Below, one piece after another: positions 9,218 through 53,204 of a stretch of 64,000 nucleotides of DNA (positions are counted from its first letter, which is position 1; every line of letters begins with the position of its first letter). Under the pieces are notes generated by a model. It was given only the letters and a program-made list of their open reading frames with translations, was not told the origin of the DNA and did no database searches. Source of the stretch: Chitinophagaceae bacterium (GTDB taxonomy: Bacteria > Bacteroidota > Bacteroidia > Chitinophagales > Chitinophagaceae). The translations under genes were made by a program, and so were the position numbers. The stretch lies in assembly GCA_027486835.1 (NCBI GenBank), contig JAIXOJ010000023.1, forward strand, positions 1 to 64,000. The letters are read 5' to 3'.

Positions 9218-9533
9218 AAACCTCACCCCAATCTATCTCCAAGGGAGTGGGAACTGGAATGTTAGCCTAGAATAGATTACAAGACATTTTTACACTTTGT
9301 TTATTTGGCGCATCTAAAAAGTTTCTTGCCCCTTATTTAAACCTCACCCCAACCCCTCTCCAAAGGAGCGGGAACTGGAATGTTAGCCTGGTATTGATTA
9401 CAAGACACTTTTACACTTTGTTTATTTGGCGCATCTAACTTGTTTCTCGCCCTTTATTTAAACCTCACCCCAACCCCTCTCCAAGGGAGAGGGAACTGAA
9501 ATATTAGCCTAGAATTGAGCGAAACACTTTTAT
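9218..9533 (+). repeat. Three tandem ~120-bp copies of the CCTCACCCC dispersed repeat
   Basis: Copies start near 9221, 9341 and 9461, spaced 120 bp. Each contains CCTCACCCCAA, a CTCTCC / GGAGNGGGAACTGGAAT hairpin, and TACAAGACA...CACTTTGTTTATTTGGCGCATCTAA. The third is truncated. Further copies lie at 1084-1178 (opposite strand) and 59317-59358. No open reading frame is shared, so these are intergenic repeats that were locally tandem-duplicated. Confidence 0.92.
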
Positions 9534-9610
9534 TCAGCCGTTAGCATGTGTTCCTACATTGCGCAAAAAAGTCCAGATTTGCTTACTTCTATTGGAAAAT
9601 GGGCTACCAT

Positions 9611-9903
9611 ACCATATCAGCATTTAACCCTACCATTTAAGCATTTAACCCTACCATTTAATCATTTAACCCTACCATATCAGCATTTAACCCCACCATA
9701 TCAACATTTAACCCACCATATCAACATTTAACCCCACCATATCAGCATTTAACCCCATCATTTCAGCATTTAACACCATCATTTCAACATTTTACCCTAC
9801 CAAATCATCATTTTAAGCAACCAAGTGAGCAAATTACTATGCCATAGCAACATTTTTCTAGTTCATGGCAGCGTTTTGCAAGATCATAGTATTATTTTGG
9901 GTG
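9611..9903 (+). repeat. 21-bp tandem repeat array B
   Basis: About fourteen units at a 21-bp period (one unit of 20 bp), with consensus ACCATATCAGCATTTAACCC plus one base. The first seven are nearly uniform. From 9757 they decay but keep phase, and the last four (to 9903) retain only CAT...CATTT positions. The array ends 210 bp before the start of the helical protein gene at 10114. There is no spacer variation, so it is not a CRISPR. Confidence 0.95.
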
Positions 9904-9995
9904 CTCGACACTTTAAGAAGAATAATGTGAAAAATTAAACACTATTCCACTATGTTACTCATCATTATTCTAGTAAAAACGGCACATTTTTTGGA

Positions 9996-10010
9996 CTTTT
10001 TGGAAGAAAT
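9996..10010 (+). promoter_or_regulatory. Upstream motif shared by array-linked loci (B)
   Basis: CTTTTTGGAAGAAAT, 118 bp upstream of the ATG, matches CTTTTTGGCAGAAAA at 55956 in locus D at 13 of 15 bases and CTTTCTGAAAAAAG at 43550 in locus C loosely. It lies between the array and the presumed promoter in all three. Confidence 0.5.
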
Positions 10011-10113
10011 TTCCTGTTTTTAAAAAATTTTTAAAAAAAATTGCTGCCAAATCATTTATTCCCCTACATTCGCTTCATGAAACAATAAATGCTTAACTGA
10101 TTAAAGAATACCC

Positions 10114-11022
10114 ATGGATAAAGTAGTTCAGAACACAGAAACAAGAGTGGTCAAAGTCATTGACTTTTTCGACGAAAAAGAGAACAATGATATATTAAAT
10201 CCCATTGAAGAAATTAGGAATCCTGTAACTGATTTAAAAGCATTACACAAGGACTACGTTACTGCTGCAAAAATTCAATTGGCGCCACATACTACTAGAG
10301 AAGCAGTGGATAAAGCAAGAAAAGCCTTTGCGAGTAAATTGAAAATAAAGCTAGACAGGGTACACGCTACGGTAAAAAAATCGGGCAATAATAATTTACT
10401 AACCTTGGTGGAAAAACCTATGTCGTATATAATGAGTGCGACCAAGGGCGAGGCAACTATTAATGCACAAATTATTATTGATGAACTAGAAAAATACGTA
10501 CCTGATTTACTAAAGAATAAACTGAATAAGGACGATATTGCTGAATTGAGGGCTTTATTAGCAGCTTATGACGACATAAAAGATTTACCCCTTGAATCAA
10601 TTGATAAAAAGAAAGTAAAAGGAACCAATGCTTTGGCTGCTTTAGACCAAAAAGCAAAAGCAATTTTCACTGAATTGAAAATTGGTATTAATGGATTTTT
10701 GTCGGATAATCCTACTTTGAAGGAAAGTTTTTTGGCTGCGCTTGCTGCGCCAAAAATGCCTAAAAAAAGCAATACGGCAAACATAAAATTAGTGGATGAA
10801 AGTGGTAATCCCTTTACCGGTAAGGCAAGGTTGTATGATATTAAGTCAAGGGCCAAAAGAACCCCTTCTTTCAAAGCCAATTCTAATGGTGTAATTCCTA
10901 TTAAAGGCCATAAAGTGGGTAAATTTCCTTTCAAACTCGTTATAAAGGGCAAGCCAGATATTATGGTGACTGTTGAATTTATTAAGGCTGAGGAAGTGGA
11001 GTTTGTGGTTGTTGTTAAGTAA
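10114..11022 (+). CDS. Unknown helical protein with C-terminal Ig-like domain, linked to array B
   Basis: A 302-residue protein I do not recognise. Residues 1 to about 215 are Lys/Glu/Ala-rich and predicted helical (for example the stretch around TREAVDKARKAFASKLKIKLDRV). Residues 225-302 look like a small beta-sandwich of the carboxypeptidase-regulatory type (IKLVDESGNPFTGKARLYD...). There is no signal peptide, membrane segment or cysteine-rich site, so a cytosolic role is likely. It lies 210 bp after array B behind an AT-rich leader with a TACATTCG box (10065-10072). Its setting matches the genes at 43650 and 56053 although the sequences differ. Confidence 0.8.
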   Translation: MDKVVQNTETRVVKVIDFFDEKENNDILNPIEEIRNPVTDLKALHKDYVTAAKIQLAPHTTREAVDKARKAFASKLKIKLDRVHATVKKSGNNNLLTLVEKPMSYIMSATKGEATINAQIIIDELEKYVPDLLKNKLNKDDIAELRALLAAYDDIKDLPLESIDKKKVKGTNALAALDQKAKAIFTELKIGINGFLSDNPTLKESFLAALAAPKMPKKSNTANIKLVDESGNPFTGKARLYDIKSRAKRTPSFKANSNGVIPIKGHKVGKFPFKLVIKGKPDIMVTVEFIKAEEVEFVVVVK

Positions 11023-13907: not shown

Positions 13908-16510
13908 AGCGCATACTTTACATATTGCCTCTACTCATATTCCTGTATTCATGTAAGGACGCTTTGGTTCTAGATATTAAAACAGTTTCGTTTGATAAAG
14001 CAGACACAATTCTATTTGGCAACAATCAGGACATTATTATCAATGGCTTACCTGATTCAACCTTATCGCTTTCATATTCCGATACTGATTCAACTTTTTC
14101 ATGGCAACTAAATAAACCTGCATACTTCAAAATAAACGGCAAAACACAAAATGCAGTGATGCTGGATTCTGTCAAAGAAATTACGATTGGAAGTAAAAGC
14201 TCTTTTGACATTAAAAACATCAAGGCAATTACAGAAAAGTTCCCCGAAAAAGATGATGGTGTGAAATACATTAGACTAGGTAACTTACTCAAAGCAGCAT
14301 TCCACACTAATAATCCTTTACTTGATTCACTTAATTCTATAGTTGCTTGTGATAGAAATAAAGATGATGTGCCTAAATTGATAATTCTTGATACGATTGT
14401 TTCTGTAATAAAAGTAAACGGTGAGCCGCAAGGATTTAAAGCGTCCGCCAAATTTGATTCAAATAAAATTGACATTGAATTTTTCAGAACATTCAATTCA
14501 GTTATGCTTGACACAATAAATAGTAAATCGTATCATATTGGAGACACAGTTTATTACTCAACTGTAAAATCTTTTTACACTCCTTTTGGTGCAAGCAAGT
14601 TAAGCATTGAAGCAAATGGAAAACTTGATGTTTCATTCAACAGATATTTCAGAGCAGTTATTCCTAAACTCTCAATTGATTCAGCTTTCTCAAAAAACAA
14701 TTCAATTCCTGTAAGCATCAAACAGAAAGCTCAATCCAACACTTACAGTAATGAGATTTACACTTCAAATATTTCAAACAGTAATTCATTTGAATTTGGA
14801 ACAGTAGATAATTCTTTGAAATTTATTCAAACCAAAAACAACACACTTGTAAACGGAAACAATTTAATTAGCTTCAAAATCAATAAGTGTACATTCTTAA
14901 AGTCAATATTGCCCCTGATTTTCGTTTTTACTTTCGGACTTATTGTAATCTACTTTGTAACAGAAAAGAACGATATTTATGAAATTGAATCCTCTCAGGG
15001 AGAAAGCGATAAATGGCGAAATCATTTTTGGATATTATTCACTGCATTATTTTTTCTCTCGGTAGGCAGAATTTTCATTGGTTACAACTTGTCGTTTACA
15101 GCACCTTACTTTTCATTTGCTTTCCCTACTGCAATAATCGTATCACCTTTATTACTCTTAACCGTTCTTTATATTTGGTTAATATTCATTCTGCATAATG
15201 ACCAAGATGCGATTGGTCGTAAATGCAGATATGCTATGGTTGTGGTTCCAATTGTCCTTTGGTGTGTATTGCGTTACTTTGTAATTGACAAACACTTTCC
15301 ATTTTACATGCAGGATTTTCATAGAACTTTTGTATGGAATCTATTTAGAATGGGAGATAATTATGTTCATTATTTAACAATTGTATTGCTTACCTTTTTC
15401 TTAATTCCAATTTCAATACAGTTACTTCCTCTTAGCAGAAACAAGGATACCTCATTTAAGCATTTGCTTTACTTAATATCTTTAGCTTTACTTGCTATAG
15501 GGTTTATCAGATTTGGTAAAAACTCCTATTCTGTGTCAGCATTATTGCTTGCCGTTTGGACTCTTATCGGCTTAGGAAATAAAGGAGTATTAAGCTTAAC
15601 TGGTAATTCAAAGAGTGCTAATTATATAGTTAAACTTTTCAAGCAAAAGGTGAAGCTAGCTCTTGATGTTAATTATGTAGAACGGCTATTTAAATTTGTT
15701 TTGATAGTAACATTGCCTCTAATAGTGGCACTTCTATTAGCCTTATGGAATAGTGATGGAGGTTATTTTATAAATGTTATTATATTCCCTACTATAATTT
15801 CCGTTGTTCTTTTCGGGATTTATAAATACTATTCAGATGCAGATTCAGGCATCAACTGGAACAAAACAAAATTTGGATTTTTCGGTAATATAGGCTTTAT
15901 CTATATTGTCTTTGTCGGCTCATTCTTTTGGGCTAAAAACAAATCTCAAGGATATAACCCACTTGAAAGCGGAAGAATGGGAAGCCGATTTACTTCATTC
16001 TTTGATTTCAACACCGTTCATGAATACGGAACTAGAGAATCTGAAAAACAAGCACAGTTCTTTGCGGAACTTTCCAAATATTCCTATCCTTCTCAACACA
16101 GTCTGTATGAACCTATTCACCCCGGTATCAGTTCGTTTATTGACCCTGTTGTAAAAAATGATTTAAGTGTTCCGTTTGGATTGATTTATCCATTTGGAGA
16201 AAAATGGTTGATACCTGTTTTGGGGTTAATTCTCATTTGGAGTATTATTTTCTTTTCGGTATTACGAACAACAATTACTCCAACAGCCAATTTCAACAAT
16301 CAGCGATATTTTACGCAATATGCCATAATCAGAATTTATTGTGCTTGTATGTTAGTGGGTTCAGGACAATGGCTCATTGCATCTTATTACAATATCGTTC
16401 CGTTTACAGGCAGATTGATTTTTGGCTTAGGGCAGGATTCTATTGCGGAAGTGTTTGAAACGATATTTTTATTTTCCTATATGGGCTTAATCAGTAAAAC
16501 AGATTCTTAA
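13904..16510 (+). CDS. Membrane protein with extracytoplasmic lipoprotein-like domain and SEDS (FtsW/RodA)-like region
   Basis: An 868-residue protein. The N-terminus (...LLIFLYSC, Cys17) resembles a lipoprotein signal and precedes about 310 beta-rich residues. From about residue 330 there are many transmembrane helices. The C-terminus resembles SEDS glycosyltransferases: a segment ending PFGEKWLIPVLGLILIW in the place of IGEELG..G, then GQWLIASYYNIVPFTGRLIF followed by a short loop and final helix, like the [23 protein letters not shown] end of FtsW/RodA. Coupling to the PBP-like gene (4-bp overlap) fits a SEDS-bPBP synthase pair. SEDS membership is inferred by eye. Confidence 0.55.
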   Translation: MKRILYILPLLIFLYSCKDALVLDIKTVSFDKADTILFGNNQDIIINGLPDSTLSLSYSDTDSTFSWQLNKPAYFKINGKTQNAVMLDSVKEITIGSKSSFDIKNIKAITEKFPEKDDGVKYIRLGNLLKAAFHTNNPLLDSLNSIVACDRNKDDVPKLIILDTIVSVIKVNGEPQGFKASAKFDSNKIDIEFFRTFNSVMLDTINSKSYHIGDTVYYSTVKSFYTPFGASKLSIEANGKLDVSFNRYFRAVIPKLSIDSAFSKNNSIPVSIKQKAQSNTYSNEIYTSNISNSNSFEFGTVDNSLKFIQTKNNTLVNGNNLISFKINKCTFLKSILPLIFVFTFGLIVIYFVTEKNDIYEIESSQGESDKWRNHFWILFTALFFLSVGRIFIGYNLSFTAPYFSFAFPTAIIVSPLLLLTVLYIWLIFILHNDQDAIGRKCRYAMVVVPIVLWCVLRYFVIDKHFPFYMQDFHRTFVWNLFRMGDNYVHYLTIVLLTFFLIPISIQLLPLSRNKDTSFKHLLYLISLALLAIGFIRFGKNSYSVSALLLAVWTLIGLGNKGVLSLTGNSKSANYIVKLFKQKVKLALDVNYVERLFKFVLIVTLPLIVALLLALWNSDGGYFINVIIFPTIISVVLFGIYKYYSDADSGINWNKTKFGFFGNIGFIYIVFVGSFFWAKNKSQGYNPLESGRMGSRFTSFFDFNTVHEYGTRESEKQAQFFAELSKYSYPSQHSLYEPIHPGISSFIDPVVKNDLSVPFGLIYPFGEKWLIPVLGLILIWSIIFFSVLRTTITPTANFNNQRYFTQYAIIRIYCACMLVGSGQWLIASYYNIVPFTGRLIFGLGQDSIAEVFETIFLFSYMGLISKTDS

Positions 16511-16511
16511 A

Positions 16512-17735
16512 ATGACTCCAAAAGAAATAACCTTTAAAACGATCATAAAATTTCTATTGCGCTTTGCTCTATTGAATTGTGTTTGGATTATTCCTGCAAT
16601 AGCTTTTTTTATACATGGCACATTGCTAAAAGTTTTATTCTTTTCCTTTTTGGTTTCCTACACTTACCTATCAGCATTAAAGCATTTTGGGAAAAAAATA
16701 GTAACACTTCAAAAAGTAGCCGTCGGAATAAGTTTAACGTATTGGATAACCGTATTCATATTTTTAGGTCTTACTGGAGTTGCTACTTATGAGGGTATTG
16801 TAAATGTGTTTGGCTTAACCGGTAGGCGCGTACTATTTGCAGTAGTTTTTGCAATTGGTATTCCATTGGCATTGTTAGTTATTACGTTAATAATTAAAGA
16901 GCGAAAAACACCATCTGTGATATTAGGAGCACTCATACTTTACATGCTTTTCGATTTTATGACAGCCCTCCCTTATAATTTTCTATTTTTCTACGAACAT
17001 TTGAAAACGGCATCCAATGTTGAATTCGATAGGAGAAATTTGACATTAGTAATAAATGCTTGCGATTCCGTTATTTCGCCTAAATATGAAACAGCTGTAA
17101 AACAGCTTAGAAATATCAATAGTAAAGTATCAAATGCAATGAAAGAAGATGCAACAAACAAGCAAAAAAGATGGGAGAGTGATAAAGATGCACTTAAAGA
17201 ACAACTAAAAGAGGGAACGATATCTCAAGAAGAATACAATAGGCAATTTAATTCCTTAAAGGGAAAATATAGACCTAGTGAAATAAAAAGATCTGACAGT
17301 GATAATAACATTATTAATAATGCAAGTGCAGATTCTATCAGCTATAAAGGGTTGTTAGATACATTGCATACTTGCAAAAAATGGAAACTTAGACTAGATA
17401 GAATTACAAATACCGAAAATGCAAAAAGTTTAGGTGACAGTATAAAAATGGATATAATTTCAGTATGCAATGGTAGTAGAGACACAACGTTAATGGGCAA
17501 TGTAAATTTACTTTATCCCAATAAACCCTCCGCATTGCAGTCCATAAAGCAGCTGTACAGGTTTATAGGAAATAAGATTGTCGGCAAAGAAATGAAAATT
17601 ACAGATAATTCAAACCAGAGCTATGACAAAGACACGGATATGCTGATTATGATGAGCCTTTCTTCGTCATTGGTTATTGATATTCTACCTTTGCTATTAA
17701 GTTTATTGTATGCCAAGTTTAAGAGAGATGATTAA
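16512..17735 (+). CDS. Unknown membrane protein with helical extracytoplasmic or cytoplasmic insert
   Basis: A 407-residue protein. The first 160 residues contain four or five hydrophobic helices. Residues about 165-370 are charged and helical, with a coiled-coil-like run around KKQRWESDKDALKEQLKEGTISQ-type sequence and a short QEEYNRQF segment. A last hydrophobic helix (about 375-397) ends in KFKRDD. I do not recognise a family. It starts one base after the SEDS-like gene stop and overlaps the following gene by 26 bp, so it is translated as part of the same unit and may be a scaffold for the complex. Confidence 0.75.
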   Translation: MTPKEITFKTIIKFLLRFALLNCVWIIPAIAFFIHGTLLKVLFFSFLVSYTYLSALKHFGKKIVTLQKVAVGISLTYWITVFIFLGLTGVATYEGIVNVFGLTGRRVLFAVVFAIGIPLALLVITLIIKERKTPSVILGALILYMLFDFMTALPYNFLFFYEHLKTASNVEFDRRNLTLVINACDSVISPKYETAVKQLRNINSKVSNAMKEDATNKQKRWESDKDALKEQLKEGTISQEEYNRQFNSLKGKYRPSEIKRSDSDNNIINNASADSISYKGLLDTLHTCKKWKLRLDRITNTENAKSLGDSIKMDIISVCNGSRDTTLMGNVNLLYPNKPSALQSIKQLYRFIGNKIVGKEMKITDNSNQSYDKDTDMLIMMSLSSSLVIDILPLLLSLLYAKFKRDD

Positions 17736-18444
17736 GAAGCTATTATTCCCATACGAAAACATTTTGAGCATTGCTGTTATCAGTGATGAGGAGCGAAACT
17801 GCACTTTGCTTAAAACCTTCTTATGTTCTGCTTTTGATGCTTCTGATACTATTCTCAAAGGAATTGGTAATGTAACTTACAAACGGGACAATGATATTTT
17901 CTGCTTCATTGTCAATGAAATAACAGAGATTAAATTTTCAATTCACGTATTTAGTTCCATTAAAATAGATTTTTCTATGCACCATATTTTAATTCCAGTA
18001 TTCCGGCTAAACAAGTATAAGGCACATGAATACGACCAAACGGCTCATGATTCAGAAACTATTTTAAGTTCAATATCTTCAACTAACAAACCCGTTATTT
18101 TTTGTTACATAAATGCTCAATGCATTTTTGAAGATATAATATTGAACAATACCCACTGGCAAATGGTGAATAACGAACTCTACAATCGCATAATTAACAA
18201 CACAAATGAATCAGGAATAAAACTTACTGAACAAGGCAACGCTATTATTCAAGGATTATTTAAGGTTTTTAACTACCATTCAAGAGAACAGAGATTATTT
18301 GCAATATCGCAGAAGGCAACCTTTTTCGCTTTCGATAATTCCGATTCTGAAATTGTGTATGGGAACAATGAATTTACAACAAATCTATTGATGCAATTGC
18401 TTTCATTTGACAGGTTAAATACATATCATTTTCAAATTAACTAA
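17710..18444 (+). CDS. Probable degenerate GTPase-like protein (no Walker A)
   Basis: A 244-residue soluble protein. Its start (ILSIAVISDEERNCTLLKTFL) lines up by eye with the P-loop strand and helix of the next gene, but the GxxxxGKT residues are absent. A later NKPVIFCYINAQ strand resembles the NKxD region of GTPases. It overlaps the previous gene by 26 bp and is 5 bp from the GTPase-like gene. I infer a pseudo-GTPase partner, but it could be an unrelated fold. Confidence 0.6.
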   Translation: MPSLREMIKKLLFPYENILSIAVISDEERNCTLLKTFLCSAFDASDTILKGIGNVTYKRDNDIFCFIVNEITEIKFSIHVFSSIKIDFSMHHILIPVFRLNKYKAHEYDQTAHDSETILSSISSTNKPVIFCYINAQCIFEDIILNNTHWQMVNNELYNRIINNTNESGIKLTEQGNAIIQGLFKVFNYHSREQRLFAISQKATFFAFDNSDSEIVYGNNEFTTNLLMQLLSFDRLNTYHFQIN

Positions 18445-18449
18445 GAACT

Positions 18450-19790
18450 GTGAGCATAGATACAACATACTTTGAAGAAATAAACAGGAAGGATTCAAAC
18501 GTTAAGAAAAAGCTATTTCAGATGAAAGAAAAACTATTTTCAAGCAAACCTGATGTTATACAGATAGGAATAGGGGGCTATTCTTCATCGGGAAAAACCG
18601 TATTGATTGATGCCATGTTCTCATTCTTTGATACATCTACAATTCCAGCTTACATGCCCAAAAACCATGCAGGGGTATTATTAAACGCATATAAATGGCT
18701 ACCAGCATACAAAAGCCATTCAGCATTAAGAAGTTCTGTTGACGATACATTTCACACAGATAATAAAACAATAGATAAGGGTGAATGGGACGAAAATACC
18801 TATTGCACTAAACTTTGTTTTGGGGGCAAGGAAAAAATACTATTAGTCCGAAATATACCCGGAGAGATGTTTGAATTATATTTTAAAAAGTCCACCAATG
18901 ATGATTCCCTAAAGGTAAAGTTTAATCACTTCATTAACCAAAATAAGAAATATAAAAAGGAAATTCAAAAACTCTATAAATTTCAATCAAATTTTGATAA
19001 TACCAATCTAAAAAACATTATTAATGAAATTAGGACAACTTTCTTTAATCATATTAAATTGTCAACTATAGTAGATAATGCTACTTTACTTAAAATTGAA
19101 ACAAATTTTTATGCATTTCTGTTTTATTATACGTCAGACATCAACGTTTATTGTATAAAATCAGAAGGATTAACAGAAGATGCACATAGAATAAATAATG
19201 ATAACATTCGTAATTCTCATGACCGAGTTGAAGATATTGACAATTTTATTATTTGTTACACTCAATTTGACAGAATACTTTCGGAGAAAAAACTACCCGA
19301 TATAGCTATACAAACACCAAGCGATGAAAATGCCAAGCCGACATTCAAGGAACAACTTTTAGAGTTATTCGGTGCAAAAAAACAAGTAAATTCTTTAAGA
19401 AATGGGGTTAATAATGAGATTATAAATTATTGGCTTACCATGAATAAATTTTATATCGACATTGAGAATCGAAAGCATGAAATTATTGATAAGACTAAAT
19501 GGGACGGTATAAAAGACACCACGGATAATGGAAGATACAACTGGTTTATTACCTCTGTTGCCTATAATTTTAACCAAAAAACATTTTTTGATTTTCAGAA
19601 TCAAACAACCACATCTTCTGCAACTGATATTTGGAACATAAATAACAATAAACAAAGAACACCTATCGGTGTATTAGAAGTATTGCTCTACATTTTGAGA
19701 AAAAAGGGCTTTAAAGAAAACAACTGGAAATTAGCCTTAACCCAAGATATAAAATTCTCAATGATTAGAAAAAAAATTGGAATTAAATAA
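18450..19790 (+). CDS. P-loop GTPase-like protein of the PBP/SEDS operon
   Basis: A 446-residue protein starting with GTG. It has a clear Walker A, GYSSSGKT (Gly43-Thr50), and a downstream NIPGEMF resembling the D-x-PGE switch of YcjX-like and 'double GTPase' (DO-GTPase) families, but with Asn in place of the conserved Asp. FIICYTQFDRI is a possible NKxD-equivalent strand. No membrane segment is seen. The next gene begins inside its stop (TAATG). Assignment to the DO-GTPase group is from memory of the family pattern; nucleotide specificity is unknown. Confidence 0.68.
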   Translation: MSIDTTYFEEINRKDSNVKKKLFQMKEKLFSSKPDVIQIGIGGYSSSGKTVLIDAMFSFFDTSTIPAYMPKNHAGVLLNAYKWLPAYKSHSALRSSVDDTFHTDNKTIDKGEWDENTYCTKLCFGGKEKILLVRNIPGEMFELYFKKSTNDDSLKVKFNHFINQNKKYKKEIQKLYKFQSNFDNTNLKNIINEIRTTFFNHIKLSTIVDNATLLKIETNFYAFLFYYTSDINVYCIKSEGLTEDAHRINNDNIRNSHDRVEDIDNFIICYTQFDRILSEKKLPDIAIQTPSDENAKPTFKEQLLELFGAKKQVNSLRNGVNNEIINYWLTMNKFYIDIENRKHEIIDKTKWDGIKDTTDNGRYNWFITSVAYNFNQKTFFDFQNQTTTSSATDIWNINNNKQRTPIGVLEVLLYILRKKGFKENNWKLALTQDIKFSMIRKKIGIK

Positions 19791-22666
19791 TGCGACAAAC
19801 TGAATTTTATATTGCCATTATCGGAGCCATAAGCAAATTCAAGGGATTTGGGGATATTATTGCATCATCTCAAATCTTCTTAAAAGATATGAAGCAAGTA
19901 AGAGCAGTTTCAGAAATTGACAAAGAAGTTGCTTCATTTTACGATAATTATCCAAGTTCATACCTTGATTTGTTCCAATGGTTTGGCTTCCCTAAAAAAA
20001 TTGCAGAAACAAACTGCTTTCTAATTATTAGGGCTAAGAAAAAATTTACCGCATTTCCTGAACAAAATCGTTTTTACGACAGGAGAGAGTATTTTTATTT
20101 AACTCTTGACAATGATATTGACAGCATTGATTTTTCGGCATCAATTCCTGAAATGGTTCAGTATGAAACAGAACAGTTAGGTCAAGTAAATAACTTTCTG
20201 ATAAAAGAAGCCAATTACCCCTCAGACGAAAAGTTTAACAAATACATTATTACATCACTACTAACCCAATCAACAGTAATAGTAAAAGTAACAGAAAATA
20301 ATGCCGATGAAACAAAAGATAAAATACTAGGTTCAATACAAAAATGGCCGGACGTCTATAAAAAGTATTTGGGATTTGGGTTTAACTTAGAGAGTAATGC
20401 CCCTTTTGTAAAAAACTATCTTCATTTGCTTACAACACTTGACGACAATGGAGTGGAGGCAAATACTTTGCCCCCTCTAAAAATTAATGATATAGACTTA
20501 AACGACTTTGCAGAGGCATTGTTAAATATGCAGATACAATATGATGCTTCTGAACTTGAACTTTTAAATACTCCTATAAATCGCGACACATTATTTGAGT
20601 TAGTGAAATATCATAAGCTTCATTTCAGAATTGACAAGTATCTAAACTCATCATTGGAAGAAAGCAAGAAGCAAGATCTTTTTTCAGAATCCCAAAATTA
20701 CATCTCAACTTTCCTTACAAGTGCATTTGCCAGTAACCAATACTTACAAAAACGAATTTTTTGCATTTACAAGTTTTGGCATAACGGTGGCCTTCTAAAA
20801 ACTGAAACTTTTCTTTGGTTTTGGAAAAAATTTGGTGAAGCAAAACTTAAACATGAAAAGTTTTTGAATGACTACGAGGTAAGAGAAAGCGTTAATACAT
20901 TTATTCAAATTGAGTTCCGATCAGTAAAATCACTTCGTGATGCTGATAACAAATATTTTTCTTTATCAGAGTTCCCCTCCTTTAACTATCCCAATGTCTC
21001 ACTACTTGAAGAAATAAAAATTGAGTTCTACAAACAGAAAAAGACAGATACAACTTTAAGCTTTTTAGAAATTAACGAACTGGATAATTACATCAATCCA
21101 ATTGAGAAAAAGGCAAAATTGGATATTCGTGAAAATCTTTTGAGGAATGTTGATTTTAAAAAACAGTCGGGCAGCATATCAAGTGAAGAAGGTTTTGAAT
21201 TGCTTAAAGAGAAAATTGAGCAACTCAGTTCAAGTCAAATTGAAGAAATCATTTCTTACATTGGATTAACAACCCTGTTTCAGATTTTAAAAACTGGTTT
21301 TCAACAAAAACTATTACGAAACAATAACTTCAATGTTCCCGTGTTGGAATTAGCTATCAAACAAGACAACTTCAACGAAATTCTAAAATGGGTTTCTTTA
21401 CTTCAAAACAACAATGTAAAACCAAATTTCAATACTGGTCATTATTTGGATATCCAGTCCACAAAGATTAATTCACATAATGACTTCTCTTTGTTTGATT
21501 CATTGTGCAAATCAATAATTAATAACATATCCTTATTCAAAAATGATGAAGTTTCCGCATTTATTAAAAAAATTCTAGAAAAGACGGGTTGTCAACAAGG
21601 GCAATTTTTTTCTTCAGCTTTTTCCGTTGCTGAAAAATTTAATTTTAAAATCAATGTTTCTAATTTACTCCCCAACGACGATAAGCAATCGATAGACTTT
21701 ATTTCGTTACTTGAAAAAAATATAAAACTAATAGAAAATAGCGAAATATTAGAGAATCTTAAGCAGATTTTTTTTGATTTATTTTCACAAAAAGCGGATA
21801 GGTTCGATAAAGTATTAAGCTTTCCAGATGAGAATTTAGCTTTCGTTTCAGCTAATGCAATTCAGTTTTCTGATTTGCTCAATAATATTTTCTTGCAAGC
21901 TGAAAACGATAGTCTTAAATATCAAAACACTCTTGCTTTGTTTAATAACATAATTGAAAAAGAAAGAAACTTGTTCTTAAATCCTAACAGCAATCTTTAT
22001 AACAGTATTTCGGAACTTGCAAACGCTGATAGTAAATTTATAAATGAACTTTATGACTTAGGACTAAAAATTGAAGAAAAAAATAAAGACGAATTTTCAG
22101 ACGCCATTAAATTGATTGACAAAATAATTGACAATAATTTTCCAACTCAAAATAGTAATTTTCTAATAAACATGAAAAATAAGGTATATTTTATTAGATA
22201 CAGCACTAAACTTCTTTTGTTTGGGTTGCTTTTTACAGTAGTATTCACATTGAGCTTGGCATTTTATTATTGCTTCCAAAATAATAATTTGTCGTTGAAA
22301 CTAGAAAAGGTTAGTCAAGAAAACTCAAACTTAACATATGATATTCAAAATTTAGAGTATCGGCTTTCCAACGGTTCAAAAAATGAAAATAGTTATAATC
22401 TAACCAACGAATTCCCGCTTACTCCAACCCCTAACGGTGAATTGAATTTAAATGATATTAATGTTACTAATAAAAGATTAATCTATGGCATGCACGTTGA
22501 TAGTGTGGTATCAATTATTTATTCGATTAACCCAACTGACATAAGCAGTCATTACAAAAGCCAAATAAAAGCGTACGCCTCAGAATTAATTAAAACCAAT
22601 GTTAATTCATTTAATAATGGAATTTTTACCGGTGCCCCTTTACAGCACATTCCCTCATTTAAATAG
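19790..22666 (+). CDS. Large GTPase-associated-like protein with C-terminal membrane anchor
   Basis: A 958-residue protein. The N-terminus (AIIGAISKFKGFGDIIASS...) recalls the 'GTPase-associated protein 1' (GAP1-N) pattern of an opening Gly-rich strand followed by a LLAxS-type helix, a low-certainty match. The middle is a long helical, repeat-like region. One transmembrane helix lies at about residues 805-828 (KLLLFGLLFTVVFTLSLAFYY), followed by a short coiled coil and about 100 residues outside. It shares one base with the GTPase-like stop and ends the operon. A role linking cytosolic GTPase state to the envelope enzymes is inferred. Confidence 0.7.
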   Translation: MRQTEFYIAIIGAISKFKGFGDIIASSQIFLKDMKQVRAVSEIDKEVASFYDNYPSSYLDLFQWFGFPKKIAETNCFLIIRAKKKFTAFPEQNRFYDRREYFYLTLDNDIDSIDFSASIPEMVQYETEQLGQVNNFLIKEANYPSDEKFNKYIITSLLTQSTVIVKVTENNADETKDKILGSIQKWPDVYKKYLGFGFNLESNAPFVKNYLHLLTTLDDNGVEANTLPPLKINDIDLNDFAEALLNMQIQYDASELELLNTPINRDTLFELVKYHKLHFRIDKYLNSSLEESKKQDLFSESQNYISTFLTSAFASNQYLQKRIFCIYKFWHNGGLLKTETFLWFWKKFGEAKLKHEKFLNDYEVRESVNTFIQIEFRSVKSLRDADNKYFSLSEFPSFNYPNVSLLEEIKIEFYKQKKTDTTLSFLEINELDNYINPIEKKAKLDIRENLLRNVDFKKQSGSISSEEGFELLKEKIEQLSSSQIEEIISYIGLTTLFQILKTGFQQKLLRNNNFNVPVLELAIKQDNFNEILKWVSLLQNNNVKPNFNTGHYLDIQSTKINSHNDFSLFDSLCKSIINNISLFKNDEVSAFIKKILEKTGCQQGQFFSSAFSVAEKFNFKINVSNLLPNDDKQSIDFISLLEKNIKLIENSEILENLKQIFFDLFSQKADRFDKVLSFPDENLAFVSANAIQFSDLLNNIFLQAENDSLKYQNTLALFNNIIEKERNLFLNPNSNLYNSISELANADSKFINELYDLGLKIEEKNKDEFSDAIKLIDKIIDNNFPTQNSNFLINMKNKVYFIRYSTKLLLFGLLFTVVFTLSLAFYYCFQNNNLSLKLEKVSQENSNLTYDIQNLEYRLSNGSKNENSYNLTNEFPLTPTPNGELNLNDINVTNKRLIYGMHVDSVVSIIYSINPTDISSHYKSQIKAYASELIKTNVNSFNNGIFTGAPLQHIPSFK

Positions 22667-23805: not shown

Positions 23806-24393
23806 ATGCACAATTCTTTAACCTCTCAACAAATAAATAAGTTAGGAAACACACTTGTTTATCTTGCTAATAATGTTGGGGAGTTAAATAAAACAAAAAT
23901 CCTAAAACTGCTCTATTTAATTGAGGAAAAATCAATTAAAAAGTTTGGCTATCCTTTCTTAGGGGTTAATTTTCAGTTGTGGAAATTTGGTCCAGTTTTA
24001 AAAGATATTTATATCGATTTGTCGGAAGACGCTCCACAAATTTTATCCGCATACATAAAAAAGGCAGACTATGACAATAGCCTGTTTGTTCCAATAACCG
24101 AGTTTAATGATGATGAGTTTAGTGATAACGATATGTTTTTACTAGATGCGATAGTAGATTTTGCACGACATAAAACAGCAAAAGATTTAGTTGATTTCAC
24201 CCATTCCGACAACTCACTTTGGAAACTTTCCGCCCTGAAAAATGGTATTTACGAGCAACTAGAGGCTAAAGAAATAAATAGCACCGAGTACTTGATAGAC
24301 TTCTCTTTGTTGTTTGAAGATGATACATTTCATAAGGAACGTTACGAAAGTGCAGTAGATAACTTAGCATTTATTCAACAATTGAAAAGTTAG
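23806..24393 (+). CDS. Panacea (DUF4065/SocA) domain antitoxin
   Basis: A 195-residue protein of the Panacea domain family: helical start (INKLGNTLVYLANNVGELNKTKILKLLYLIEE), then FQLWKFGPVLKDIY, the hallmark W-x-x-GP-V motif, and LWK...ALKNG near residue 145. Panacea proteins neutralise very diverse toxins by direct binding. The candidate toxin gene starts 3 bp downstream, so they are co-transcribed in the usual antitoxin-first order. Confidence 0.85.
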   Translation: MHNSLTSQQINKLGNTLVYLANNVGELNKTKILKLLYLIEEKSIKKFGYPFLGVNFQLWKFGPVLKDIYIDLSEDAPQILSAYIKKADYDNSLFVPITEFNDDEFSDNDMFLLDAIVDFARHKTAKDLVDFTHSDNSLWKLSALKNGIYEQLEAKEINSTEYLIDFSLLFEDDTFHKERYESAVDNLAFIQQLKS

Positions 24394-26840: not shown

Positions 26841-27713
26841 ATGAGAAAGAAATTAATACGTTTTGATTGGGCAATAAAAAGACTATTAAGAAACAAAGCC
26901 AATTTTGTTGTATTGGAAGGCTTTTTATCTGAGTTGTTGTATGATGACATTAAAATAGAAAGAATTTTAGAAAGCGAAAGCAATCAAGAAACAGATGAGG
27001 ACAAGTTTAACCGAGTGGATATTTTGTGCTTGAATTCAAAAGGTGAATTGGTAATTATTGAGATTCAAAACACTTATGAAATTGATTATTTCCACAGAAT
27101 GGCCTACGGAGCTTCTAAGGTATTAGCCGAACACTTGAGTTTGGGACAGTCCTATTCAGCAATAAAAAAAATAATCTCTATAAATGTGGTCTATTTCGAT
27201 TTAGGTCAAGGTATAGATTATGTGTACAAAGGCAGGACAAACTTTGAAGGTTTACATGAAAAAGATACTTTACAACTTTCGTTGCAGCAAAAACAAACTT
27301 TTATTAAAAAAGAAGTTGCTGATATTTTTCCTGAATACTATATCATAAAGGTGAATCAGTTTAATGACATTGCAAAAGATACGTTGGACGAATGGGTGTA
27401 TTTTCTAAAAAACAGTGAAGTAAAAGATGAGTTTAAGGCAAAGGGGTTAGCAGAAGCAAAGGATGTTTTGGATATTATGCGTTTGAACAAAGAGCAACAT
27501 TATGGTTATAACCGTTATTTGGATTATCTGCACCTAAAAGCCAGCGAAGCATTCACGCTAAGAGTAATGGCAGAAGAGAAAGTAAGAATAGATGAAAGAG
27601 AAAAATTTGCAAAAAGCCTTTTTCAAACCAACTTCTCCAATGACGAAATAGCAAAACATACTGGTTTAACAGTAAAAGAAATAGAAGCGATACGAAACAA
27701 AAGGGAAGAATAA
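26841..27713 (+). CDS. Rpn family PD-(D/E)XK nuclease / putative transposase
   Basis: A 290-residue member of the Rpn/PDDEXK_2 group. It starts with FDWAIKRLLRNKANFVVLEGFLSELL and has the nuclease core RVDILCLNSKGELVIIEIQN (Asp, Glu, Gln), followed by a helical C-terminus ending with a short NDEIAKHTGLTVKEIEAIR helix-turn-helix-like tail. Rpn proteins are DNA endonucleases promoting RecA-independent recombination, and some act in phage defence. Distinct from the two Rpn genes at 51-53 kb. Confidence 0.85.
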   Translation: MRKKLIRFDWAIKRLLRNKANFVVLEGFLSELLYDDIKIERILESESNQETDEDKFNRVDILCLNSKGELVIIEIQNTYEIDYFHRMAYGASKVLAEHLSLGQSYSAIKKIISINVVYFDLGQGIDYVYKGRTNFEGLHEKDTLQLSLQQKQTFIKKEVADIFPEYYIIKVNQFNDIAKDTLDEWVYFLKNSEVKDEFKAKGLAEAKDVLDIMRLNKEQHYGYNRYLDYLHLKASEAFTLRVMAEEKVRIDEREKFAKSLFQTNFSNDEIAKHTGLTVKEIEAIRNKREE

Positions 27714-31530: not shown

Positions 31531-32457
31531 TTAATCTTTTGCTTGTTGCTTCATCATTCCAATAATTTGTTTCATGGTTTTATCCATTCCTTCTGCGCTT
31601 CCATCCAAAAAAATGACGTTTCCAGACCCTAATTCCGCAAAGTTTTTGATGGCTTCTGTCCACATGCTAAATAGAATGACATTGGTATCCAGATTTGCTT
31701 CTTTCATTTTCTCAGCAGCTTGACTCATTCCTTTTGCCACTTCTTCCCTAAAAAGTGCAACCCCCTGCCCTCTTAACCTTGCCGCCTCTTTCTCTGCTTC
31801 TGCTGATATTTTAATAGCATTACCCTCTGCTTCGGCAGATTTGGTTTTGGTAATTAATAATGCTTGGCCTTCGTTTTCCGCTGCTGCTTTTAAGTTATTG
31901 CTTGCGACTACTTTGCTCATACTTTCCATCACCGCTTTATCGAATGTGATGTCATTGATTTGTAAATCTTGCAAGTGGTAGCCCCATTCTTCCAAAGAAT
32001 GATCAATCTGCTCTTTTACATAGTCAACAATTTCCCGCCTTGCTGTGAGTATTTCCGCTTGCTTTTTGGTGGCTACAAATGCTCTAATAGACCCCTCAAC
32101 GGTTCTAATTAAAGCTTGCATCAAATCTTTATCGCTAATAAATTTAAAAGCTACTTTTTTAACGGTCTCTTCCTCTGCGTTTTGTACTGAGTAAAGCAAC
32201 ATACTCTTGAAATATACATTAGCTTGGTCGATGGTAACAGCTTGAAACTCTAATTCTACACTCCTGTTTTGAATGCTGATTCGTTTATAAACTTGTTCTA
32301 TCAGCGGAATTTTAAAGCGCAAACCGGGTAATAAAATCCTTTGGTATTTGCCAAAAAGGGTGATTACGGCAATCGTGCCTTGGGTAATCGTAATCAAACT
32401 GCTGAAACCAATAATAACAAGTAGAATCAACCACCAAAAACTGATTAATACAGGCAT
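31531..32457 (-). CDS. SPFH/Band 7 domain membrane protein
   Basis: A 308-residue protein with an N-terminal membrane helix (ISFWWLILLVIIGFSSLITI) and an SPFH domain starting at TIAVITLFGKYQRILLPGLRFKIPLIE. A long Ala/Glu-rich coiled coil follows (KAAAENEGQALLITKTKSAE...EAARLRGQG). Proteins of this group oligomerise as membrane scaffolds, like HflK/C or stomatins. It stands alone. Confidence 0.88.
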   Translation of the reverse strand: MPVLISFWWLILLVIIGFSSLITITQGTIAVITLFGKYQRILLPGLRFKIPLIEQVYKRISIQNRSVELEFQAVTIDQANVYFKSMLLYSVQNAEEETVKKVAFKFISDKDLMQALIRTVEGSIRAFVATKKQAEILTARREIVDYVKEQIDHSLEEWGYHLQDLQINDITFDKAVMESMSKVVASNNLKAAAENEGQALLITKTKSAEAEGNAIKISAEAEKEAARLRGQGVALFREEVAKGMSQAAEKMKEANLDTNVILFSMWTEAIKNFAELGSGNVIFLDGSAEGMDKTMKQIIGMMKQQAKD

Positions 32458-32702: not shown

Positions 32703-33923
32703 ATGGAAGATATCACCAAAGAAGAACTACCAATCAATCCCAATGATGAATTAAAGAGCAAAAGCAACTTTCATGAAACAAACTCTAGTACTTCTATTTC
32801 GCTAAACGATACCGCAGAAGGAACAGAAAATGTGGGTCTAGAGGAAAACGCAATAACTGAAGAAAATAATAACAACGAGGCTGAAAAAAAAAGAAAAAAA
32901 GAGAAACTTGATTATTCCTTGAAAAAAGATAGCGTAGCGCTAGTAAAAAACAACCTTGACCTAGCGTTTGTGTACGAAAACGGATTCCGATTTAAAGAAT
33001 TGATGCTATTTAAAACAAGCGGAATAAGGGTTTTGGATCAGAATCATCTGCTTATAGAATCAAAAGACTTAGCAAACGCGAAACCCTATGTATTAGAAGA
33101 TGGTCAATCTATTATGGGATACCAATATTCCAATGGAATGATGATCACGAGATTACCAAGAAATAATTACTTACAACAAGTAAACAGTGTTTTTTTATTA
33201 GGGTCGTTTGTTGATATTGCGATGGTTAGGAAAGGATTTTCGGATGGATTTGCTTACTTTCCTTTTCATTTTTTTGCCAATAAAGCAACAAAAAAAACTT
33301 TTTTTGAGCACAAAATTCCAAAGTTCAATGCTGAAATTGTTCTACAAGTAGAAAAAGCAACTGGCCTTGTTTTTAGTACCAAAGAGTTTACATCAGAACA
33401 GCAATTTAGCCCAATAGAATTATTGGATTATTGTTTTGCAATCTTAAATAGCAACACCTACAAAACCCGATACGAGGTTTTTCTGCGCTTAGATTTTCCA
33501 AGAATTCCATTACCTAAAAACAAAGAACAATTTAAGTTGCTTGCATTACTTGGTTCTGAACTTAGGTTGACACACCTGCTTGATATTGAGCTAAATGAAG
33601 CAGATTTTCCATCGCTTGTTGGCGGAAATGTTGGCTATATAATAACTTCAATACCAAGATATCTACCACGCCCTCGCAACAAAGACAATGGCTATTTACA
33701 AGGAGACGTATTACTGAGCGAAACCTGCTACTTCGAAAACGTTCCGTTACACGCATGGAAATTTTCGATTGCTGGCTATTTACCACTACAAAAATTCATT
33801 AGAGAAAAGGTGGGCCAAGTGATTACAACGGAAATGATTTATCAATTCAAAAGTCTTGTTGCAACTATATTAGAATGTTACAGGCTAATTGATCGAATTG
33901 ATGAGGTTCCATTTTTAGATTAA
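32703..33923 (+). CDS. Orphan protein resembling the C-terminal specificity region of type ISP restriction enzymes
   Basis: A 406-residue protein. Residues 1-85 are acidic, low complexity and disordered, ending in a KKRKKEK patch. The rest resembles the C-terminal part of type ISP restriction-modification proteins: ITRLPRNNYLQQVNSVFL, then FSPIELLDYCFAILNSNTY with YRYEVFLRLDFPRIPLPKN-type sequence, LLGSELRLTHLLD, and a closing WKFSIAGYLPLQKFIREK...CYRLIDRIDEV. Methylase and helicase domains are absent and nothing adjacent supplies them. The match is by eye. Confidence 0.6.
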   Translation: MEDITKEELPINPNDELKSKSNFHETNSSTSISLNDTAEGTENVGLEENAITEENNNNEAEKKRKKEKLDYSLKKDSVALVKNNLDLAFVYENGFRFKELMLFKTSGIRVLDQNHLLIESKDLANAKPYVLEDGQSIMGYQYSNGMMITRLPRNNYLQQVNSVFLLGSFVDIAMVRKGFSDGFAYFPFHFFANKATKKTFFEHKIPKFNAEIVLQVEKATGLVFSTKEFTSEQQFSPIELLDYCFAILNSNTYKTRYEVFLRLDFPRIPLPKNKEQFKLLALLGSELRLTHLLDIELNEADFPSLVGGNVGYIITSIPRYLPRPRNKDNGYLQGDVLLSETCYFENVPLHAWKFSIAGYLPLQKFIREKVGQVITTEMIYQFKSLVATILECYRLIDRIDEVPFLD

Positions 33924-34022: not shown

Positions 34023-34970
34023 TTAAGCTTCAATAACTTTTTTGGTTTGCGCTTTCCATCCGATTAATAGAACTCCAGCTAGAACCAACATCGTACCAAT
34101 TAATTGCTCAGAAAAAATTTGCTCTCCCAAAATAAAATGGGCTTGAAGAATAGTACTTACTGGGCCAATACTCGTAATGATAGAAACATTATTACTACCG
34201 ATCCTTTTCATTGCATTTGAAATTAAAAAGGATGGAACTACTGTTGCTAATATGGCAAGAGCAGCACTGTAGGCTAATAAAGTAGGATTCCAAACTATAC
34301 TTGGGGTTGACGAAGCCGAATGGCTGATTAAATAATGAAGGAAAACACCAATTGTCGCGGATAACATAGCATAGGTAGTGTATCGAGTTGAACCAATTTG
34401 CCCTACCAATTTGCCAGTACCCACTAAATAAAAGGAATAGGTGATACTACACAACAAAATCATTGTTGTGCCAAATAAAAACATCGGGTTGCTGTTATCA
34501 ATTTTTAATTCGCCAAAATATGCCAAACCAATACCTGAGTAGGTGAGTAACAACGCAAGCATCTGCATACGGGTTATTCTCTCTTTGAAAATTATTGCAT
34601 TCAATAGGATAGAAAACGTTGGATACAAAAACAAAATGAGCCGTTCTAACCCAGCAGAAATATATTGCAAACCAATAAAATCAAATAAACTGCTTAGATA
34701 ATAGCCAGCAATGCCCAATACAAGCGTGTAAATCCATTGTTGTTTAGTAAGATTTACGTTACCTTCTTTTCTTAAGACTACCCAACCAATAATTAAATAA
34801 AAAGGAAGGGAAAAAAGCATTCTTAAAAATAACAAATCAATTGCATTGGTGTGTGTGTCTTGAAAAGCTAGTTTTACGAAAATCGCTTTCGTAGAAAACA
34901 ATAAAGCACCAGAAAGTCCAATTACAAAGCCAATTAAGCTTACTTGTTTCGTGTCATTCGATGGAGTCAT
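34023..34970 (-). CDS. EamA/DMT family transporter
   Basis: A 315-residue protein with about ten transmembrane helices arranged as two EamA repeats (LIGFVIGLSGALLFSTKAIFVKLAF... and MFLFGTTMILLCSITYSFYLVG...). The second repeat ends SIGPVSTILQAHFILGEQIF, the typical EamA finish. The substrate cannot be told from sequence. Single gene. Confidence 0.9.
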   Translation of the reverse strand: MTPSNDTKQVSLIGFVIGLSGALLFSTKAIFVKLAFQDTHTNAIDLLFLRMLFSLPFYLIIGWVVLRKEGNVNLTKQQWIYTLVLGIAGYYLSSLFDFIGLQYISAGLERLILFLYPTFSILLNAIIFKERITRMQMLALLLTYSGIGLAYFGELKIDNSNPMFLFGTTMILLCSITYSFYLVGTGKLVGQIGSTRYTTYAMLSATIGVFLHYLISHSASSTPSIVWNPTLLAYSAALAILATVVPSFLISNAMKRIGSNNVSIITSIGPVSTILQAHFILGEQIFSEQLIGTMLVLAGVLLIGWKAQTKKVIEA

Positions 34971-51508: not shown

Positions 51509-52342
51509 CTAAAGATTTTCAATTTCCGCTCTGGATAAGCCTGTTGATGAAATGATAATGTCTATTGCTACACCACTTTTCTTTAATGCAGATGCTATTT
51601 CCATATTTCTTCTTATCTCACCTCTTATCTCACCTCTTTTTTCTGCTAACTCTAGTTTCCCCCTTTCATCTCCTTCTTTCATAGAAGCACGCTCATATTC
51701 CTCCAGCTCGGCTTTGGTCCAATTTTGTTTGCTGGCTTGTTCATAAGCCTCTTTTAAACCTGGGTCAATTACATTTTCAGGAATCACAGTGAGGTTTTCA
51801 GCATTTTTGATAAAGTAAGTCCATTGGTCTATGTTGGTTTCTAGTTGATCAATGGTTTTGGTGAATTTGGGTAGCTCTATAAAATTGAATTCAACATCCT
51901 TGATTACTTGTTCATTGGTTTTTACATCTAATACTTTATGACGACTGAAATATTGTTTACTCACCCCAATCTCAAACTCTAAGATGCCGATGAAGTAAAC
52001 TGGTTTCAAATATTTGTAGTCCGCCCCTTTGCTTATTTGGGTTACATAGCTCTGCGAGGTATAGTATAAGATGCGCTTGTGAAAGAAATGATAGGCTGAT
52101 ACTTGCATCTCTACAAGGAAAATATTCCCCTTTTCGTCCTGCGCTTTTACATCGATGATGGTGGATTTGCCATCATTTAAAATACCTAATTGAAACGGAT
52201 TGGCAATGGTTACGTCTATAATTCGTTCCTCCTCGGGCAAATTAATAACTGCATTGAGGAATGAAATCAACGATTTCTTCTTGCTTTCATTGCCAAATAT
52301 TTTTCGGAATGCAATGTCGTTGGTGATGTCTACGAATGTCAT
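51509..52342 (-). CDS. Rpn family PD-(D/E)XK nuclease / putative transposase, copy 1
   Basis: A 277-residue Rpn/PDDEXK_2 protein beginning MTFVDITNDIAFRKIFGNE. The nuclease core is STIIDVKAQDEKGNIFLVEMQV (Asp, Glu, Gln). The C-terminal tail has ELAEKRGEIRGEIRRN, a short internal repeat, and ends in SSTGLSRAEIENL. The first about 220 residues are almost identical to the next gene upstream (52383-53204), so this is a tandem duplication. The family cuts DNA and promotes recombination. Confidence 0.88.
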   Translation of the reverse strand: MTFVDITNDIAFRKIFGNESKKKSLISFLNAVINLPEEERIIDVTIANPFQLGILNDGKSTIIDVKAQDEKGNIFLVEMQVSAYHFFHKRILYYTSQSYVTQISKGADYKYLKPVYFIGILEFEIGVSKQYFSRHKVLDVKTNEQVIKDVEFNFIELPKFTKTIDQLETNIDQWTYFIKNAENLTVIPENVIDPGLKEAYEQASKQNWTKAELEEYERASMKEGDERGKLELAEKRGEIRGEIRRNMEIASALKKSGVAIDIIISSTGLSRAEIENL

Positions 52343-52382: not shown

Positions 52383-53204
52383 TTATAGTTTTTCAATCAC
52401 TTCTCTTGACAAGCCTGTTGATTTCATTATTATTTCTACTGAAACACCATTTTGCTTGAAAGCTGTTGCAATTTCAAGACTTGTTTCAATCTTCGCTTTA
52501 CTCAAAGCAAGCTCCATTCTCCCCCTTTCATCTCCCTCTTTTATAGATGCACGTTCATATTCCTCTAGTTCGGCTTTGGTCCAATTTTGTTTGCTGGCTT
52601 GTTCATAAGCCTCTTTTAAACCTGGGTCAATTACATTTTCAGGAATCACGGTGAGGTTTTCGGCATTTTTGATAAAGTAAGTCCATTGGTCTATGTTGGT
52701 TTCTAGTTGATCAATGGTTTTGGTGAATTTGGGTAGCTCTATAAAATTGAATTCCACATCCTTAATCACTTGTTCATTGGTTTTTACATCTAATACTTTA
52801 TGACGACTGAAATAGTGCTTACTTACCCCTATCTCAAACTCTAAGATGCCGATGAAGTAAACTGGTTTCAACAATTTGTAGTCTGCCCCTTTGCTTATTT
52901 GGGTTACATAGCTATGCGAGGTATAATACAAGAGGCGTTTGTGGAAGAAATTGTATTCAGCCACTTGCATCTCTACAATGAAAATATTGCCTTTCTCGTC
53001 CTGCGCTTTAACATCGATGATGGTGGATTTGCCATCGTTTAAAATGCCTAACTGAAACGGATTGGTAATGGTTACGTCTATAATTTGTTCCTCCTCGGGC
53101 AAATTAATAACTGCATTGAGGAATGAAATCAACGATTTTTTCTTGCTTTCATTGCCAAAGATTTTTCGGAATGCAATGTCGTTGGTGATGTCTACGAATG
53201 TCAT
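52383..53204 (-). CDS. Rpn family PD-(D/E)XK nuclease / putative transposase, copy 2
   Basis: A 273-residue paralogue of the gene at 51509-52342, differing at about a dozen positions over the first 220 residues and diverging afterwards (ALSKAKIETSLEIATAFKQNG instead of the RGEIRGEIR tail). The nuclease core STIIDVKAQDEKGNIFIVEMQV is intact. The short 5' flank (ATGTCTACGAATGTCATGGG on the plus strand) is also duplicated. Confidence 0.88.
   Translation of the reverse strand: MTFVDITNDIAFRKIFGNESKKKSLISFLNAVINLPEEEQIIDVTITNPFQLGILNDGKSTIIDVKAQDEKGNIFIVEMQVAEYNFFHKRLLYYTSHSYVTQISKGADYKLLKPVYFIGILEFEIGVSKHYFSRHKVLDVKTNEQVIKDVEFNFIELPKFTKTIDQLETNIDQWTYFIKNAENLTVIPENVIDPGLKEAYEQASKQNWTKAELEEYERASIKEGDERGRMELALSKAKIETSLEIATAFKQNGVSVEIIMKSTGLSREVIEKL

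Follow-up and report, generated by a model that had tools for sequence, protein, structure and literature searches.

A stand-alone protein, P0001, with the recognition-domain fold of type IIG and type ISP restriction enzymes

Introduction

Why would a genome carry the DNA-recognition end of a restriction enzyme as a gene of its own? The question is raised by an open reading frame (ORF) in a 64 kb stretch of DNA from a Chitinophagaceae bacterium (64,000 nucleotides, termed the window below). An initial annotation of its product, P0001, described a free-standing protein resembling the C-terminal end of type ISP restriction enzymes, preceded by an acidic tail of 85 residues and with no methylase or helicase nearby. 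A relic, a decoy against restriction and an independent DNA-recognition protein were put forward as explanations. The analysis reported here leans towards P0001 being a kept, domesticated stand-alone recognition domain (TRD) of a type IIG/ISP-like restriction-methyltransferase.

Results

Identification of the P0001 gene and its domain content

The ORF opens with an ATG, the putative start codon, and encodes 406 amino acids without internal stops (Table 1). By codon score, its own frame was ahead of the five other frames. A scan for sigma-70 promoters and terminators gave nothing beyond chance level, and no promoter was found for the gene.

A single Pfam domain was identified in P0001, Type_ISP_C (PF18135), at residues 160-369 (E 4e-26; 92.4 bits, cut-off 25.9), with the match covering profile positions 125-312 of 342. 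The best PADLOC match was REase_MTase_IIG (E 2.3e-34). With the Foldseek match to LlaBIII described below, these results bear out the type ISP C-terminal resemblance first proposed, and the stretches quoted for it are present in the protein. P0001 was found to consist of a TRD only, the nuclease, ATPase and methyltransferase being missing from its chain, so that it does not have the one-chain architecture of type ISP enzymes. The leader was found to be acidic over residues 1-60 (net charge -12) and basic over residues 61-80 (net +4), meaning that the acidic tail of the initial annotation is shorter than the 85 residues given. The domain itself (residues 86-406) has a net charge of 0.

Table 1. 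Coordinates of P0001, its parts, its neighbours and the mini-proteins. The first ten rows refer to the window and the remainder to the locus named.
Feature	Position	Strand	Basis or remark
Gene of stand-alone TRD protein P0001	32703..33923	+	ORF; PF18135 92.4 bits
Acidic tail, residues 1-60, net -12	32703..32882	+	AlphaFold2 model (confidence mostly low), charge count
Mostly basic segment, residues 57-80, predicted helix 57-72	32871..32942	+	AlphaFold2 model, charge count
First half of TRD core in reduced form, residues 86-204; jaw absent, loop V segment poorly alignable	32958..33314	+	Alignment, model (low confidence at 109-134)
'F..EL...KTSGI' box, residues 94-113, aligned with LlaGI recognition loop IV	32982..33041	+	Profile alignment; loop numbering from PMC4872093
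Helix layer stacked on core sheet, residues 205-272	33315..33518	+	Alignment, model; kept in the 20 free-standing proteins compared
Guide-like subdomain, residues 273-406	33519..33920	+	Model (confidence mostly high), structure alignment
Basic stretch RYLPRPRNK in guide, residues 319-327, probably near the backbone contacts of LlaGI K1473/K1479	33657..33683	+	Sequence and LlaGI mapping
Left neighbour, SPFH/Band 7 protein, end of exbD-exbB-SPFH block	31531..32457	-	Not part of system
Right neighbour, EamA transporter, start of EamA-dapD pair	34023..34970	-	Not part of system
Mini-protein, L097	9197-9451
Mini-protein, L098	9341-9595
Mini-protein, L099	9235-9495
Mini-protein, L100	8354-8719
Mini-protein, L101	8956-9369
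Mini-protein, L102	9627-9962
Mini-protein, L103	9277-9621
Mini-protein, L104	9383-9745
Mini-protein, L105	9034-9525
Mini-protein, L106	8831-9277
Mini-protein, L107	7797-8126
Mini-protein, L108	9427-9732
Mini-protein, L109	9416-9826

Genomic context

The genome (6.4 Mb, 99% complete) has a single PF18135 domain, that of P0001. A profile built from the methyltransferase halves of six type IIG systems identified no such half in the window and none in the whole genome, the latter search being run without a positive control. The same profile was positive at eleven of 15 restriction-type loci, six of which had supplied its rows (five of the nine others were positive). The claim that no methylase lies nearby was thus upheld for type IIG methyltransferase halves, the family searched, over both the 64 kb window and the genome. 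The missing helicase is uninformative, as the closest full-length relatives are type IIG by PADLOC and have no Pfam helicase.

The exbD-exbB-SPFH block on the left of P0001 is present in part of the genus, and the EamA-dapD pair on its right was found at all twelve congener loci read. SPFH and EamA-dapD lie on different contigs in the eleven congeners having both, the assemblies being fragmented. Congener flanks that were read show other neighbours, such as a folP-like gene that lies upstream of SPFH in L028 (by Pfam) and in L029-L032 (by eye). The twelve other genomes of the genus gave no match to P0001, placing it in one of 13.

Elsewhere in the window, two adjacent and very similar genes of the PD-(D/E)XK family transposase (PF12784) were identified on the reverse strand (51509-52342 and 52383-53204), with a third, weaker PF12784 match at 26841-27713 (+). 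A run of large genes covers 11241-22666 (+), five of which were tested and gave no Pfam match or sub-threshold ones only; a P-loop-like GYSSSGKT motif was seen by eye within this run (18450-19790), and these genes possibly form one multi-gene system. A SocA/Panacea-domain protein (PF13274, E 8.6e-19) is encoded at 23806-24393 (+).

Predicted structure of P0001

An AlphaFold2 model of P0001 was built from 33 aligned sequences of the window and the loci. Its mean pLDDT was 70.8, with values mostly above 80 from about residue 211 onward and below 50 at residues 1-53, 71-79 and most of 109-134; a helix was modelled at residues 57-72. Foldseek with this model returned LlaBIII (E 5.4e-11), LlaGI (E 9.9e-10) and DrdV (E 1.2e-8), after which only matches of E above 1 were obtained, the first unrelated chain standing at E 1.3. 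Alignment with VIA-align gave a Z of 19.6 for DrdV (model residues 83-405, 266 residues), 18.8 for LlaBIII (model residues 77-406 on LlaBIII 1192-1577) and 17.1 for LlaGI, followed by CamA at about 8. The overlap with LlaGI, LlaBIII and DrdV amounts to 248-274 residues, indicating that both the core and the guide fold are present. The comparison with LlaBIII that the initial annotation had suggested thus gave a match over nearly the whole domain. In the model, residues ~77-406 of P0001 are nearly a whole TRD, including most of the first half that was missed by Pfam. Against a viral fold library, the only significant match was to a phage methyltransferase.

Differences from full-length enzymes

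PMC4872093 describes the type ISP TRD as consisting of a core, a jaw and a guide, in which base reading is done by loops IV, V and VI, sealing of the clamp is aided by the jaw, and the guide contacts the backbone to steer the DNA without reading bases; base readers are described there as differing between true enzymes. LlaGI was mapped on P0001 via profile alignment, with a 164-residue offset counted from N1228, N1327, R1329 and H1368. P0001 was found to carry L111 at the position of LlaGI N1228 (loop IV) and A173 at that of H1368 (loop VI), with a loop V segment that is degenerate and poorly alignable, alignment and model being weak there. In the 'F..EL...KTSGI' box, the T and D of the motif GIxTxxD of the restriction-methyltransferase (RM) rows of the alignment are lost. 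About 50 RM consensus columns, corresponding to the jaw, are missing from P0001 (24 of the 26 RM rows used). The helix layer and the DNA-guiding subdomain are kept relative to full-length relatives.

Over the base-reading half, P0001 shares an identity of 0.16 with the RM rows, and over the remainder 0.36 (24 of 26 rows); the RM rows among themselves gave 0.30 and 0.63 (272 of 325 pairs passing the length filter). As the RM rows are themselves low in the base-reading half, a low value there is normal for a TRD, and it is the deletions that set P0001 apart. The jaw is also absent or mostly absent in two further free-standing proteins, L017 and L018, and it is missing from L058, which comes from a broken restriction locus, so that its loss is not confined to free forms. 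With the jaw absent and the base-reading segments altered, recognition of a defined sequence by P0001 is doubtful. Of the independent DNA-recognition protein initially suggested, DNA binding is the part that may stand.

Relatives of P0001

Matches to P0001 were found in twelve of 147 genomes of the family, its own included, the best sequence relatives showing 30-40% identity over the matched part. Full-length relatives are of ~1000-1100 aa, as with L023 (1023 aa) and L024 (1053 aa), in which Pfam identified an N6 methyltransferase and Type_ISP_C and no helicase; L024 was named REase_MTase_IIG by PADLOC. Free-standing L017 (341 aa) and L018 (370 aa) come from two genomes of the same genus, and both have a gltD-like gene next to them. 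The other family matches were long frames, split genes and contig-end pieces. A contig search with P0001 alone gave no relative, and with a profile only two loci already known (L083 and L084, duplicates of the loci of L018 and L017, respectively).

Among 396 genomes of the order, free-standing forms were identified in at least 16, namely P0001, four proteins of 261-321 aa (L091-L094) and eleven mini-proteins of 84-163 aa (minis), with at least two further minis in 395 genomes of the class. These counts are lower bounds, further short frames having been left out (for example in G202, G193, G376, G480, G618, G636 and G765). The neighbourhood survey proposed at the outset covered 20 free-standing loci (P0001 and 19 others), none of which showed a type IIG methyltransferase half in its fetched flanks. 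All seven larger free forms scored above the PF18135 cut-off (33.5-171.3 bits). Free forms were kept at one place in related species for L017/L018, L091/L092 (in two genomes), L097/L098/L099 and L101/L102, and not for P0001; the frames of L017, L018, L091 and L092 are all open.

Split systems, with the methyltransferase and the TRD on separate genes, also occur in the order (L085, L087). In L085 (8927-15120) and L090 (4757-10603), DUF1016/YhcG nuclease genes lie between the two split genes, identified by Pfam for one in L085 and by eye for the others. At L019 (8922-10019), a TRD C-terminus follows a DUF559 domain in one frame, adjoining a truncated type IIG gene, and the junction carries a GSQDGVV repeat.

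In a tree of these proteins the seven free rows were not united, with three label changes; trees with one change made up 0% of 200 bootstraps. Starred branches of this tree are nonetheless compatible with a single origin. With long branches (3.99-6.68) and an unsettled bootstrap, the origin and the place given to P0001 are tentative, and the 'RM' label of the tree includes split, broken and contig-end genes (L013, L055, L058, L062, L063, L064).

Evidence for selection

One alternative is that P0001 is an ancient relic in slow decay: a rearrangement would have left behind the 3' end of a type IIG gene, which is still open by luck and has lost its use. This would suit the presence of P0001 in one of 13 genomes of its genus, its long tree branch (3.99) and its position at the junction of blocks that are apart in congeners, which also fits a fragment left by rearrangement. 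Broken or partial copies were moreover common among the loci read, with stops in L136 and L110 and C-terminal TRD fragments lacking the methyltransferase half in L089 and L111 (counted as restriction-type loci, not as free forms).

The manner in which P0001 has changed argues against decay. P0001 covers 104 of the columns in which at least 85% of the RM rows agree. It departs from the RM residue at 48 of these, and in 25 cases the substitution scores positive in BLOSUM62. Simulated neutral change of equal amount gave 11.3 +/- 2.8 such positive changes and none of 2000 runs reached 25, although part of the change in P0001 may predate its freeing. Over the whole gene, neutral simulation gave a mean of 8.6 stops (0 in the lowest run), and P0001 has none. 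L136, a broken gene of the same kind carried by a Bernardetia plasmid, is close to the consensus and contains stops as well as an internal deletion; P0001 is the opposite. On this sequence evidence, a recent relic, as initially suggested, is disfavoured, and an old one appears rather unlikely.

As no orthologue of P0001 was found at its place, its own dN/dS is not measurable. For free relatives, the ratios, which are rough, were 0.32 (L017/L018), 0.26 (L091/L092), 0.40 (L101/L102) and 0.03 (L097/L098, with one amino-acid difference only); synonymous change was saturated for L097/L099. With their open frames and shared places, L017/L018 and L091/L092 are parallel cases in favour of a kept TRD. 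Tested neighbouring genes gave 0.03-0.13. Ratios 3-9 times those of neighbouring genes in three of the four pairs show that constraint on the free forms is loose. L017 (9229-10254) and L018 (16289-17401) differ with a dS of 1.06, compared to 0.14 for the adjacent gltD pair, which may be due to faster local change, to replacement, or to exchange or a separate move of one copy.

Mini-proteins and their neighbourhood

The thirteen minis keep the helix layer only, with the signature 'GNVCFAxxxELRxxFK..FTxxD'. The Cys of 'GNVCFA' is invariant in all twelve aligned minis and is missing in P0001. None of the thirteen scored above any Pfam cut-off in the helix-layer part; PF18135 was touched by L106 only (20.5 bits, below 25.9), and NCBIfam gave chance-level matches only. 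With a profile of RM rows only, L106 (1.2e-11), L105 (7.8e-7) and, weakly, L107 (0.0034) were found and the other minis were not significant, shuffled controls reaching 0.21. A mini-only profile found two enzyme TRDs (2.4e-23, 1.4e-19) and one split-system TRD (5e-22). The remaining minis are tied to TRDs by the larger free forms acting as a bridge and by this reverse profile. A mini model (pLDDT 75) gave no significant PDB match, which is not evidence of a new fold. In L109, the mini continues in frame (9416-10324) into a 5-formyltetrahydrofolate cyclo-ligase domain (PF01812, E 1.9e-39), which from the sequence could be a fusion or a lost stop.

Nine neighbours of the free-standing genes were tested and identified by Pfam as Rrf2, bacterial globin or RIC (ScdA/hemerythrin), a set usually linked to the nitric-oxide response. 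An Rrf2 or globin gene was found within 2 kb at seven of the 20 free-standing loci (L091, L092, L100, L101, L102, L107 and L109), five of these among the thirteen mini loci, with a RIC gene too at some; the mini and globin genes overlap in L101 and L102. None of the three was found at the 15 control loci (p 0.012 by locus; by genus, five of 13 compared to none of 13, p 0.020), an association that is post hoc, as it was drawn from the same data with profiles from the neighbours themselves and with some control flanks shorter. An annotated truncated haemoglobin lies ~5 kb away at the L136 locus, and counting it as a control hit gives p 0.045. P0001 has no Rrf2, globin or RIC neighbour in the window.

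A second alternative is drawn from these proteins, namely that the helix layer and guide form a scaffold on which a protein partner docks, DNA binding having been lost. All 20 free-standing proteins share the helix layer, and not the base-reading loops or the guide; eleven of the twelve minis scored have a pI of 4.1-6.6 (the other 8.8), and the Rrf2 or globin genes near minis would fit such a role. P0001, however, retains the whole guide and its basic hairpin, the minis may differ from it in function, and there is no candidate partner. An interaction module is thus considered unlikely for P0001.

Discussion

Reading P0001 as a kept TRD, the chance that it binds DNA is about even. Since the jaw and methyltransferase are missing, clamp closing and base flipping would be impossible. 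P0001 may then be a small non-enzymatic protein whose guide and basic hairpin (R319-K327) touch DNA, mostly at the backbone, with a weak or altered sequence preference. Its leader, acidic and then basic, could modulate this binding in competition with DNA. Its role would be that of an accessory or regulatory DNA-binding protein outside restriction. Guide-DNA contact would not be common to the whole group, as minis keep the helix layer and not the guide, and the net charge of 0 over residues 86-406 is a further point against this reading.

Orphan HsdS proteins of type I systems are also recognition modules without their enzyme, although of a different family from P0001, and may serve a genomic HsdM. 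By analogy, P0001 could be a separate specificity subunit lending its TRD to a methyltransferase made elsewhere, as the split systems of the order (L085, L087) might suggest; with no type IIG methyltransferase half in the genome (the only family searched), the identities to the RM rows given above and the jaw gone, this is highly improbable. Least probable of all is a decoy occupying recognition sites and blocking restriction, as raised initially. P0001 does resemble a recognition domain that lacks effector domains, but its gene lies between housekeeping genes with its base-reading segments altered, no match was found in 50,697 phage records at E 0.01, frames of 1015-1095 aa were present at 19 of 22 viral loci (the other three at contig ends or broken), and 28 of the 30 plasmid matches listed (48 records) fall under genes annotated as type ISP enzyme, methyltransferase or methylase.

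The fold and family of P0001 are known. P0001 shares its TRD fold with the type IIG-like L024, whose nuclease is taken from the PADLOC name with no Pfam match, and with DrdV (PDB 7lo5/7lvv), but lacks their methyltransferase, N-terminal enzyme part and jaw. The guide and helix layer are likewise found in the type ISP enzymes LlaBIII (4xqk) and LlaGI (5ffj), whereas the nuclease, ATPase, methyltransferase and jaw of these are absent from P0001 and the loop V segment is degenerate. CamA and M.TaqI-type TRDs have a related core fold (for the latter, according to PMC4872093, in which the guide fold is reported in no other RM enzymes), but are fused to a methyltransferase, unlike free-standing P0001. 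In the open-access literature, no description was found of a stand-alone, jaw-less TRD of this type or of the minis, and no paper on a nitric-oxide link or on PF18135.

The free forms may be arranged as a series running from near-whole TRDs (P0001, L017/L018) through the proteins of 261-321 aa to the minis with the helix layer only. We tentatively suggest that type IIG TRDs were freed and domesticated, perhaps more than once, in the order and class, and that the mini series led to a stress-response component, a proposal we hold at somewhat less than even.

New cell functions are known to have arisen from defence genes. A P0001 domain that still binds DNA would be a compact scaffold for binding, released from catalysis; in the opposite case, the group would show a restriction-enzyme fragment turned into a different, perhaps stress-linked, protein. 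The mini-proteins offer a concrete, testable case and, should the above reading of them be true, a piece of a defence enzyme would have become a component of a stress response.
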